Part shown: positions 21,940 through 42,871 of the stretch, piece after piece | How positions within the stretch are numbered: the first letter of the stretch is position 1 | Layout of the letters: each line of letters begins with the position of its first letter | Position numbers and translations under genes: made by a program | The notes under the pieces: model-generated | Told to the model about the DNA's origin: nothing | The model's database searches: none | Seen by the model: only the letters and a program-made list of their open reading frames with translations | Origin: Candidatus Saccharimonadota bacterium | GTDB taxonomy: Bacteria > Patescibacteriota > Saccharimonadia > Saccharimonadales > Saccharimonadaceae | Length of the DNA: 64,000 nt | Assembly: GCA_017515105.1 (NCBI GenBank) | Contig: JAFWHO010000003.1 | Location: forward strand, 1 to 64,000 | Direction: 5' to 3'

Positions 21940-23490
21940 ATGGCAAAAGCGAGAACATATCAGCAATTGCTCGGCGAAACCGTAGAGCATATGCGTTTAG
22001 AAAAAGGCTGGACGCAGGGTGAGCTTGCACAAATGGTGGGGACGAGTCAGTCAGCGATTCATCGAATCGAAAAGGGTGGACAAAACGTCTCTCTTGAAAT
22101 GGTCAAGAAGCTATCTGAAGCATTCGGGACTCAGATTCTCTCTATAAATGACTCTGTTTCTCAGAGTTTTCGGATAAGGGGCGGCAAGGAATTGCACGGC
22201 GAAATTACGGTAAATACTTCAAAAAATGCGGCTGTGGGGCTCCTTTGCGCAGCACTTCTTAATACTGGCAGAACGGTACTTCATCGGGTTGCGAGAATCG
22301 AAGAGGTGTTTAGGATTATTGAAGTTTTGGAATCGATTGGCGTAAAATGTCACTGGCAAAACCGCCATAGAGATTTAGAAATTATATCACCACGTGAATT
22401 AAAGTTGGATGAGATGGATATAGAGGCGGCGAGGAGAACCAGGTCTATTATCATGTTCTTGGGGCCTTTACTTCATCGTTACCCTAAATTCAAAATCCCT
22501 TACGCCGGTGGGTGTTCGCTTGGAGTACGCACTGTCGAACCACATCTCCAGGCGTTGAAGTCATTTGGGCTCGAAGTAGATGCGGAAGGCAACAGTGGCT
22601 TTTATGAAGTTAATGTTCGTCAAGAGACTTTACATAAGTATCGAGATCGTTATATTGTGTTGACGGAGCGTGGTGATACTGTAACTGAGAACGTATTGAT
22701 GGCGGCAGCGCTTGCACCTGGACGTACAACAATTGTTGGCGCCTCGTCGAATTATATGGTGCAGGACCTCTGTTTCTTTTTGGAAAAAATTGGGGTTAAA
22801 GTTTCAGGTATTGGTACGACGCGCCTTACTGTAGTTGGCAAACCGCAAATTAGTTTGGATGTGGATTATGCAATTTCAGAGGACCCGATTGAGGCGATGT
22901 CGTTTATTGCTGCAGCGCTCGTGACACATTCTGAGATTATGATAACGAGAGCGCCGATTGAATTTCTTGAAATTGAACTTGAGATTTTGAAGACGATGGG
23001 TGCGAAAATTGATCGTTCGGAAGAGTATTTGTCAACAAATGGTAAAACTAGGTTGGTGGATCTTACAATTCATAAATCGGATCTCGTTGCACCGATTGAT
23101 AAGATTCATCCGATGCCGTTCCCAGGGCTTAATATTGATAATCTGCCGTTTTTCTCGGTGATTGCCGCTGTTGCGGAGGGCAGGACCTTGATACATGACT
23201 GGGTGTTCGAGAATCGTGCAGTATATATTACAGAACTTTCTAACTTAAACGTGAAGGTGGAGCTTCTTGATGCGCACCGCGTGTATATTGAAGGGCCAAC
23301 AAACTTTCGTGCAGCTGATTTAACGGCGCCGCAGGCACTTCGTCCGGCGGTCGTGGTGCTTCTTGCAATGCTTGCGGCACCAGGCACATCAATTCTTAGA
23401 AATGTTTATACGATCAATCGTGGGTATCAGGATTTTGCGGCAAGGCTCAGGCATCTCGGAGCAGATATTGTGCCGCTGACTGGCATATAG
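21940..23490 (+). CDS. murA: HTH-MurA fusion: XRE-type DNA-binding domain plus UDP-GlcNAc enolpyruvyl transferase
   Basis: 516 residues. Residues 1-65 are an XRE/Cro helix-turn-helix (EKGWTQGELAQMVGTSQSAI). From about 72 on it is MurA, the first committed step of peptidoglycan synthesis: TSKNAAVGLLCAALL holds the substrate Lys, AGGCSLGVRTVEPHL the catalytic Cys, FPGLNIDNLPFF the catalytic Asp, and LRPAVVV plus INRGYQDF the C-terminal binding residues. Core residues are kept although surrounding sequence is diverged, so both activity and a DNA-binding role are possible. Leaderless: TATAAT 21928-21933, six bases before ATG. Confidence 0.93.
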   Translation: MAKARTYQQLLGETVEHMRLEKGWTQGELAQMVGTSQSAIHRIEKGGQNVSLEMVKKLSEAFGTQILSINDSVSQSFRIRGGKELHGEITVNTSKNAAVGLLCAALLNTGRTVLHRVARIEEVFRIIEVLESIGVKCHWQNRHRDLEIISPRELKLDEMDIEAARRTRSIIMFLGPLLHRYPKFKIPYAGGCSLGVRTVEPHLQALKSFGLEVDAEGNSGFYEVNVRQETLHKYRDRYIVLTERGDTVTENVLMAAALAPGRTTIVGASSNYMVQDLCFFLEKIGVKVSGIGTTRLTVVGKPQISLDVDYAISEDPIEAMSFIAAALVTHSEIMITRAPIEFLEIELEILKTMGAKIDRSEEYLSTNGKTRLVDLTIHKSDLVAPIDKIHPMPFPGLNIDNLPFFSVIAAVAEGRTLIHDWVFENRAVYITELSNLNVKVELLDAHRVYIEGPTNFRAADLTAPQALRPAVVVLLAMLAAPGTSILRNVYTINRGYQDFAARLRHLGADIVPLTGI

Positions 23491-23544: not shown

Positions 23545-25662
23545 ATGGATGAAATTTTGGAGGGATTAAACGAGCAGCAAAAAGAGGCGGCAGAAACTTT
23601 AGAAGGGCCGGTGCTAATTCTTGCTGGTGCAGGAAGCGGTAAGACAAAAACTTTGACACATCGAATTGCTAATTTGATTCGCCACGGGGTTCAACCGGGG
23701 AATATTTTGGCAGTAACGTTCACAAATAAGGCAGCACGAGAGATGCGTGAGCGGTTGTGGTCGCTTGTGTCCCAGTTCGGGGCATTTCGGAGCGCGGCAG
23801 CGCGAGAGTTAGCGCCGGCCGCCCATGGCGATGGGCCGGCCGGACGCGGCCTCGAATGGGATATAAGCGACCAACCGCCGCGCTCTTTCATGCCTTATAT
23901 GGGGACGTTTCATAGTATTGCAGTAAAGATCCTAAGATTAGAAGCGGATGCTTTGGGACTTGATAAGAATTTCATAATTTACGATACTGATGACCAGATA
24001 TCTCTAATTCGGCGAATCATGAAAGAGCTTAAATTGTCTGACAATAAACAGTTGAAGCCGAAATCAATTCAGGCGATTATTTCGAGCGAAAAGAACAAAG
24101 GAAATGGGCCGGACGAATATGAGGCGAATGCTTTTTATCCAAATCAAAAGCAGATTGCAAAGATTTTTTATAAATATGAAGAAGAGAAGCGGAAAGCGCA
24201 GGCGCTTGATTTTGACGATTTGCTTTTATATGAATTAGAGCTTTTCCGAAAGAATCCGGCGATTAGAAAAAAGTGGCAGGATAGATTTGAGCATATTTTG
24301 ATTGACGAGTATCAGGATACGAATGTGATTCAATATAATATCGTGAAACTTTTGGTGAATGAAAAACGCAATATTTGCGTAGTGGGGGATGATTGGCAGT
24401 CTATTTATTCGTGGCGAGGGGCGGATTTTACGAATATTTTGAATTTTGAACGGGATTTTCCGGGTGCTAAAGTGATTAAACTTGAACAAAACTATCGTTC
24501 GACCGGTCGTATTTTGGCGGCTTCGCAAAAGATTATTAATGAAAATAAGACCAGGACTGAGAAGACTTTATTTACGGAGCTTGGAGAGGGGGAGCCGGTA
24601 GATATTGAGTCTCTAAGGGATGAGAATGCGGAGGCGAATTATGTGGCGCTCAAAATTCTAAATATGAAGAAGAACTACCCGGATTACAGTGATTTTGCAG
24701 TGCTTTATCGGACGAATGTACAGTCGTATGCGTTTGAAAAAGCGTTTATTAATATGCATATTCCGTATAAGATTGTGGGTGGGGTGAGATTTTATGATCG
24801 AAAAGAAGTGAAAGATGTGCTTGCGATATTGAAGTTGGTTGTGAATCAGCGAGATAAAGTGAGTCTTGCTAGGGTGGTGTCAAATGTTTTATCCGGAGTA
24901 GGTGAAGCAAGCCTCGCAAAAGTGATGGTGGCGATGGACGCAGTGGAGGGCGCGGAGCCATTACTTGATGCGGATGTACCTGAGGTATTGAAGGCCGGGA
25001 AAGCGAAGAACGGTTTGATGAGACTAGTGGATTTCCTTAGGAAAACTGAGGCGGACGAGAACCCAGGCGAAGTGGTGAAACGCGCAGTTGAATACTTTGA
25101 TTTTAAGACTTTGACGGATGACGGAACGCCGTCGGCGGAAGATAGAATGGGGAACTTGGAAGTACTTGCTGCTAATGCGGCAGAATATGCGAGTCTCGAT
25201 GAGTTTTTGGCGGATGCAAGTTTGATGTCTTCGGCGGATGAGGCGACTAAAAAGAATTCAGTGACGCTAATGACGATGCATGCGGCTAAGGGATTGGAGT
25301 TTCCGGTGGTATTCATCGTGGGGATGGAGGAAGGCTTGTTTCCGAGCAGTCGGGTGATGGAAGACGAGTCGGAGCTTGAAGAAGAGCGAAGACTCGCTTA
25401 TGTTGGAATGACGCGAGCGATGAAAAAACTGTTTTTGACTTATGCTGGGTCGAGGTTCTCGTATGGGTCTAGGAATTACAATATGCCGTCGAGGTTTTTG
25501 ATGGAGCTTGGGTATGATCCGTATGGATCCTCTGGCATTGGATCGGCGGGGTATCATGATAGAGATGGGGATGGGTTTACTGATTTTAATGAATTTGGTG
25601 ATGACGAGTTTGGCGAGAGTGATTTTGATCCTTTCCCAAGCGATGGGCCGATATTTGAGTAA
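23545..25662 (+). CDS. pcrA: UvrD/PcrA-type DNA helicase with palindromic in-frame insertion
   Basis: 705 residues; a 3'-5' SF1 helicase for repair and removal of blocked forks. Motifs: Q motif LNEQQKEA, Walker A GAGSGKT, Ia AVTFTNKAAREM, GTFHSIAV, II LIDEYQDTN, III VVGDDWQSIYSWRGAD, IV NYRS, V TMHAAKGLEFPVVF, VI LAYVGMTRAMK. Between Ia and GTFHS the family usually has about 10-20 residues; here residues ~70-116 are encoded by a GC-rich palindrome. ATG 23545 is chosen because TATAAT (23533-23538) lies six bases upstream. The acidic Gly/Asp-rich tail is non-conserved. Confidence 0.94.
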   Translation: MDEILEGLNEQQKEAAETLEGPVLILAGAGSGKTKTLTHRIANLIRHGVQPGNILAVTFTNKAAREMRERLWSLVSQFGAFRSAAARELAPAAHGDGPAGRGLEWDISDQPPRSFMPYMGTFHSIAVKILRLEADALGLDKNFIIYDTDDQISLIRRIMKELKLSDNKQLKPKSIQAIISSEKNKGNGPDEYEANAFYPNQKQIAKIFYKYEEEKRKAQALDFDDLLLYELELFRKNPAIRKKWQDRFEHILIDEYQDTNVIQYNIVKLLVNEKRNICVVGDDWQSIYSWRGADFTNILNFERDFPGAKVIKLEQNYRSTGRILAASQKIINENKTRTEKTLFTELGEGEPVDIESLRDENAEANYVALKILNMKKNYPDYSDFAVLYRTNVQSYAFEKAFINMHIPYKIVGGVRFYDRKEVKDVLAILKLVVNQRDKVSLARVVSNVLSGVGEASLAKVMVAMDAVEGAEPLLDADVPEVLKAGKAKNGLMRLVDFLRKTEADENPGEVVKRAVEYFDFKTLTDDGTPSAEDRMGNLEVLAANAAEYASLDEFLADASLMSSADEATKKNSVTLMTMHAAKGLEFPVVFIVGMEEGLFPSSRVMEDESELEEERRLAYVGMTRAMKKLFLTYAGSRFSYGSRNYNMPSRFLMELGYDPYGSSGIGSAGYHDRDGDGFTDFNEFGDDEFGESDFDPFPSDGPIFE
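23748..23886 (+). repeat. Palindromic element inside the helicase gene
   Basis: TGGTCGCTTGTGTCCCAGTTCG (23758-23779, here split as two 11-base halves) matches the reverse complement of 23853-23873 at 19 of 22 positions. The centre holds CCGGCC-GCCCAT (23815-23826), GGCG, ATGGGC-CGGCCGG (23831-23843). The block is far richer in GC than the flanks and keeps the reading frame open, like the Rickettsia palindromic elements that insert in genes. Confidence 0.8.
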
Positions 25663-42750: not shown

Positions 42751-42871
42751 TAAACTCTTAATATCATATTTTTTTCGACACGGGTCGCTCCGGCCCGTCG
42801 TTACGGGCGGAGCGCCCTAATTCTCGGTCGTAACCTCCGAAATGTCTCAAAAAATAGATATCAAGAGTTTA
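42751..42871 (+). repeat. Long inverted repeat in the pnp leader
   Basis: Arms 42751-42780 and 42843-42871 (TAAACTCTTAATATC... against ...GATATCAAGAGTTTA) pair almost fully. They enclose a GC-rich core where GGGTCGCTCC (42782-42791) pairs with GGAGCGCCC (42809-42817) around a perfect GCCCGT-CGTT-ACGGGC hairpin. The mRNA can fold into one long stem. No ORF is found between 42585 and 42912. Confidence 0.8.

Follow-up and report, generated by a model that had tools for sequence, protein, structure and literature searches.

To our knowledge, the best-known palindromic repeats within coding sequences are those of Rickettsia, for which a mover has yet to be identified. Rickettsia palindromic elements (RPEs) and the coding palindromes of Wolbachia are palindromic repeats of 100-150 bp, found in frame in conserved genes and without a known mover; one gene can hold different RPE groups near one place, and a 12-bp terminal inverted repeat is given for RPEs in a review table (PMC2229807, PMC3767692, PMC10969869). 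By template switching, the arms of inverted repeats become homogenised and the spacers between them inverted, coding genes included (PMC8604942).

The window analyzed here is a stretch of 64,000 nucleotides of a Candidatus Saccharimonadota genome. An initial annotation had reported a GC-rich palindromic element in frame in its PcrA/UvrD helicase gene, had named the Rickettsia palindromes as a parallel and knew of none in Saccharibacteria. The parallel fits, since in-frame palindromes in conserved genes are found in both, with Saccharibacteria as hosts here; a search of the open-access literature likewise returned no report of such an element in Saccharibacteria.

The pcrA hairpin and its repeat family

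The long hairpin in pcrA was located at window positions 23751-23878, and the reading frame runs uninterrupted across it. The features of the two copies in the window are as follows.

23545..25662, + strand: pcrA/uvrD helicase gene, host of the element in frame (705 aa, open frame, Pfam UvrD-helicase and UvrD_C)
23751..23774, + strand: left private arm, ancestral gene sequence encoding RLWSLV (GCGGTTGTGGTCGCTT, identical in the nearest empty relatives L138 and L075)
23775..23857, + strand: conserved core, a three-way junction (family model match of 102 bits; covariation)
23788..23806, + strand: core hairpin P2, CGGAG-CGCGGCAGCG-CGAG with a GGCA loop (near-invariant; the stem covaries, with GCGC, GCCT and GCTT variants)
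23812..23847, + strand: core hairpin P3 with a GGCG loop, a bulged C and a bulged A (15 pairs, 11 of them with changes on both sides)
23857..23878, + strand: right private arm, rewritten as an inverted copy of the left arm (unlike the empty relatives L138 and L075; the same arm in L140)
42772..42852, - strand: second copy, divergent, type B (TACG/AACG loops), intergenic upstream of pnp (74 bits, E 4e-16; private arms of its own)
42853..42870, - strand: left private arm of the second copy, from arm comparison
42752..42771, - strand: right private arm of the second copy, from arm comparison

The GC content of the hairpin stretch was 68%, against 45% for the pcrA gene and 44% for the window. The arms have a kernel of 17 nt (23758-23774/23857-23873) with a complementarity of 88%. 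The element strand folded to -92.9 kcal/mol as RNA (z -6.2) and with a z of -5.3 as DNA, and 0 of 200 shuffles folded as well. With its open frame, its raised GC content and a fold that beats shuffled sequence, the palindrome is as the initial annotation described it.

The insertion point lies between motif Ia and the GTFH motif, and was placed between residues 81 and 88 of the PcrA structure of G. stearothermophilus (1pjr). An AlphaFold model of the PcrA was of low confidence (pTM 0.40), with residues 79-107 lacking a confident model. Comparison with pcrA of relatives, the closest of which belong to Candidatus Saccharibacteria of the gut (sheep and yak in several cases), showed the segment to be absent from most of them. 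The spacing from NKAA to GTFH is 67 aa in the source pcrA, against a median near 40 in empty relatives (most 31-48). An extra segment is therefore present as claimed, but the ∼45 residues first ascribed to it come to a net gain of ∼27 over relatives, because the arms overwrite gene sequence instead of adding to it.

A nucleotide search of the source genome with the pcrA element gave no good second copy; the same query in congeners gave many copies, 77-96% identical and in different places. A covariance model (R1) was then built on the ∼83-nt core and used to search the genomes. Core copies were found in 90 of the 100 species of the genus, with a maximum of 36 per genome, and the further copies that the initial annotation had proposed to look for were found in the source genome too, which holds four (pcrA, valS, gatA and the copy upstream of pnp). 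In a phylum sample of 192 genomes matches were confined to the three members of the genus plus one borderline match (29.7 bits), and the repeat is restricted to one genus within this sample. With its arms the element measures about 115-130 nt, the core accounting for 83 nt. A search of Rfam with the pcrA region gave nothing near a gathering score, and the phage and plasmid collections searched gave no match to the element. An exact motif search of IMG/VR matched three contigs in which the remaining core is missing, and these were set aside as chance matches.

The core is a three-way junction. P1 has GGGG paired with CCCC at the foot, P2 has 4 bp closed by a GGCA loop, and P3 has 15 pairs, ends in a GGCG loop and bears a bulged C as well as a bulged A. 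In the covariation test 21 of 29 core pairs had changed on both sides, with 140 cells counted against 38 after shuffling, and the signal collapsed when the pairing was slid. A second core type, with TACG and AACG-like loops, is represented by the second copy in the window and, with a variant loop, by the valS copy. Within each core type the two loops are alike, and because of this resemblance there is a hint that one factor may read both.

The repeat is dispersed, and its in-gene copies survive in frame. An ORF stays open across the element in 107 of 133 distinct copies; the naive chance for a genic insertion was 17%. Host genes, often of the housekeeping kind and named by their Pfam domains, include trmD, tatD, dnaX, mnmA, truB, lepA, leuS, tgt, uvrB, uvrC, polA, tyrS, argS, queA and obgE. 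At the insertion place, most of their orthologues in the source genome show a gap. Nine copies of the first set were without a spanning ORF; these were mostly intergenic, with some over gene ends or truncated frames, and within that set none clearly breaks a gene. Copies probably persist where they land in permissive surface loops. Across the whole genus, essential enzymes (helicase, tRNA modification enzymes, tRNA synthetases, DNA repair enzymes) have been lengthened repeatedly by a repeat.

Several other observations were made at these loci. Palindromic inserts with different cores occur at the same pcrA loop (L073, L139, L143) and at the trmD loop (L160, L161, L162); by eye these too have private arms, 26 bp long in L073, and it seems that these two loops are shared by several families of palindromes. 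In the mnmA copy at L045:1521-1638, P3 carries an additional hairpin insert of about 35 nt, and mnmA of that genome holds two elements. A partial element in trmD of G060 (L172) and, in trmD of G028 (L170), a short remnant hairpin, GAGAATTT-acaa-AAATTCTC, are apparent scars, and suggest core loss by deletion. Upstream of pcrA, the ORF at 21940-23490 appears by eye to join an XRE-type HTH domain to a MurA-like enzyme. The PcrA C-terminus (window 25560-25662) is an acidic tail with DRDGDGFTDFNEF, resembling an EF-hand/dockerin calcium loop, and is found in relatives too.

Private arms and core inversion

In nearly every copy the flanks outside the core pair with each other, and not with the flanks of other copies. 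Over 133 copies the median pairing score was 16, against 4 for mismatched flanks dealt at random, and it fell below 8 in 5 copies; the pairing had first been noticed in 47 copies. In 90 of 125 copies the arm ends at -28 to -33 nt from CGGAG, which corresponds to about 17-18 private pairs. Just about 5-8 inner pairs are shared between copies, and the outer arms are private. A pre-existing hairpin as the target was ruled out because empty sites did not exceed control windows in their tendency to form hairpins.

Each arm was compared with the orthologous gene. One arm is conserved (mean BLOSUM 6.1) and the other is not (-1.5) over 100 copies, a set that includes the four self-matches of the source genome. 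In pcrA, the left arm GCGGTTGTGGTCGCTT is old and the right arm is new relative to the nearest empty relatives. With self-matches excluded 42 copies were callable, and in 30 of them the old arm was the one lying 5' of the core when read on the element strand (orientation effect p=0.003; 0.006 collapsed by gene). Bulges tended toward the old arm (16:4 and 4:8, p=0.02). Several of these orientation and bulge tests are modest and were picked after looking, and orthologous copies are not independent. The net length gain is about that of the core alone, so the new arm overwrites existing sequence, and a first guess that core plus one arm are added per event was ruled out by the same measurement. 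For the copies that can be judged, then, one flank retains the gene's old sequence and rewriting has turned the other into its inverted copy, giving a private stem of 17-18 bp.

Perfect arms are rare (3 of 128). Arm quality showed no trend with core similarity to the family, taken as a proxy for age, and no direct target duplication was found at any tested offset. Species of the genus differ by about 20% in the genes compared, and the sample held no empty relative more than 90% identical, so that single events were not seen; the genomes named are mostly metagenome assemblies. The private arms look like a record of each copy's entry, which makes the insertion mechanism testable.

The pcrA insertion of the window recurs in L140, with identical placement of the arms and a two-base bulge common to both; read by eye, the L140 core points the opposite way, and the inner arm pairs have changed in concert between the two. 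The core was found in both directions among trmD copies, and both orientations occur in 12 of 22 orthologue bins; some of these cases may be independent insertions.

The inner arms also distinguish the two strands. Non-Watson-Crick pairs on the element strand were G.T in 65 copies against A.C in 6, in either gene orientation, and bulges in the left arm recur at fixed positions, -14/-15 and -23 to -25. The G.T excess and the recurrent bulges therefore suggest that the folded element strand is read or written by some agent, either as DNA or as RNA from that strand. One-direction copying as the source of the G.T pairs was unsupported, as G.T also dominated where the right arm is ancestral (small numbers).

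Proposed mechanism and alternative explanations

On balance, the segment probably belongs to a selfish, structured and non-autonomous repeat that is specific to the genus, spreads through genomes of gut Saccharibacteria and has its flanks rewritten by fold-back template switching. The core would first enter its target. At insertion or soon after, a polymerase at the hairpin foot would switch template and copy the old flank over the other (fold-back synthesis), as the arm data suggest. The same switching may later homogenise the arms and invert the core between them, as L140 indicates. The imperfect arms, the flat relation of arm quality to core similarity, an order of events that was not seen and the failure to find a mobilising enzyme among the candidates surveyed count against this account, and simple copying followed by decay does not account for the excess of G.T over A.C on the element strand.

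The mover candidates surveyed in 40 genomes of the genus were a Y1 transposase and a reverse transcriptase, and neither tracks the element. A transposase-independent mobile hairpin may tentatively be considered, in which the folded strand would join the target DNA, with the ∼18 nt next to it copied back onto the other end. If this were true, insertion would be signed by an inverted, not a direct, target copy, and the core could flip later.

We regard as unlikely that the repeat is a conventional MITE or REP, that is, a short derivative that a transposase moves in trans (cut-and-paste or peel-and-paste), recognising its terminal repeats. Its size, hairpins and dispersal are consistent with such an origin, and a strand-specific folded substrate, as marked here by G.T pairs and bulges on one strand, is typical of REP/RAYT systems. 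Against this, the Y1 transposase domain PF01797 was detected in 2 of the 40 genus genomes, once below the cut-off; the terminal arms are private, not conserved; and a direct duplication was not found at the offsets tested.

Spread of the core through an RNA intermediate and a reverse transcriptase, with arms made by hairpin self-priming, appears improbable. Reverse transcriptases (RVT_1) occur in 25 of the 40 genomes, with up to four per genome, and imperfect arms would be compatible with low-fidelity synthesis, but copy number shows no dependence on RVT_1, the median being 7 where it is present and 6 where it is absent (p=0.97). Neither the source genome nor G026, which is 99% complete and has 12 element copies, encodes a reverse transcriptase.

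Slightly less probable again is a functional RNA element, the core acting in the mRNA of its host gene through regulation, processing or translational bypass, with arms under selection at the transcript level. The strong covariation, the invariant loops and the retention of private stems would accord with this. However, in-gene copies lie in both orientations (43 + and 64 -), so more than half of the mRNAs bear the complement; the open frame makes bypass unnecessary; and Rfam holds no match. Selection at the mRNA level was rejected, since wobble pairs on the mRNA strand are unbiased (70 against 71) where the element strand is strongly biased.

An assembly or amplification artefact is very hard to credit: most of the genomes are metagenome-assembled and palindromes can originate as chimeras, but identical arms occur in independent assemblies (window and L140), frames are retained and the core is conserved over 90 species.

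Comparison with known systems

Among the MITEs, Correia, RUP and ERIC elements are likewise short, non-autonomous dispersed repeats with inverted ends; here the ends are not conserved among copies, and the direct target-site duplication of such elements was not found. REP/REPIN sequences, which RAYT (Y1) transposases move, resemble the present element as short GC-rich hairpins with strand-specific irregularities, but this element lies mostly inside genes and in frame, and the Y1 gene is near-absent from the 40 genus genomes searched for PF01797. The tracking reverse transcriptase expected of a retroelement was not seen in the genus genomes surveyed, nor was the selection on the transcribed strand expected of a structured mRNA.

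Template switching at inverted repeats produces the same arm homogenisation and spacer inversion, also in coding genes, but in the cases described the arms are short and already present, and have no link to a repeat family, unlike those of this element (PMC8604942). Mitochondrial genes of Nematomorpha likewise have private inverted repeats inside coding sequence; their arms are reported as perfect, whereas those here are imperfect, and a conserved dispersed core does not appear to be described there (PMC6649704).

RPEs are the nearest known kind. As with RPEs, the Saccharibacteria element is a dispersed palindromic repeat of about 100-150 bp and is inserted in frame in conserved genes (107/133). 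The likeness is one of behavior and description. The host phylum is other than that of the Rickettsiales, with the element in Saccharibacteria and in one genus of the phylum sample; the core is a three-way junction that inverts, and the arms are copy-specific and derived from the host gene, a trait undescribed in the RPE reviews and genome papers. The private arms suggest an unusual way of inserting. Together with the three-way-junction core, the core inversions and the near-absent Y1 gene, they go beyond what the initial annotation contained or those reviews and genome papers describe. This is a second, seemingly unrelated case of coding palindromes, in a new phylum and in genomes of about 0.7-0.9 Mb. 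Present in 90 of the 100 species of the genus, and in as many as 36 copies per genome, it provides a comparative data set for reading insertion footprints.
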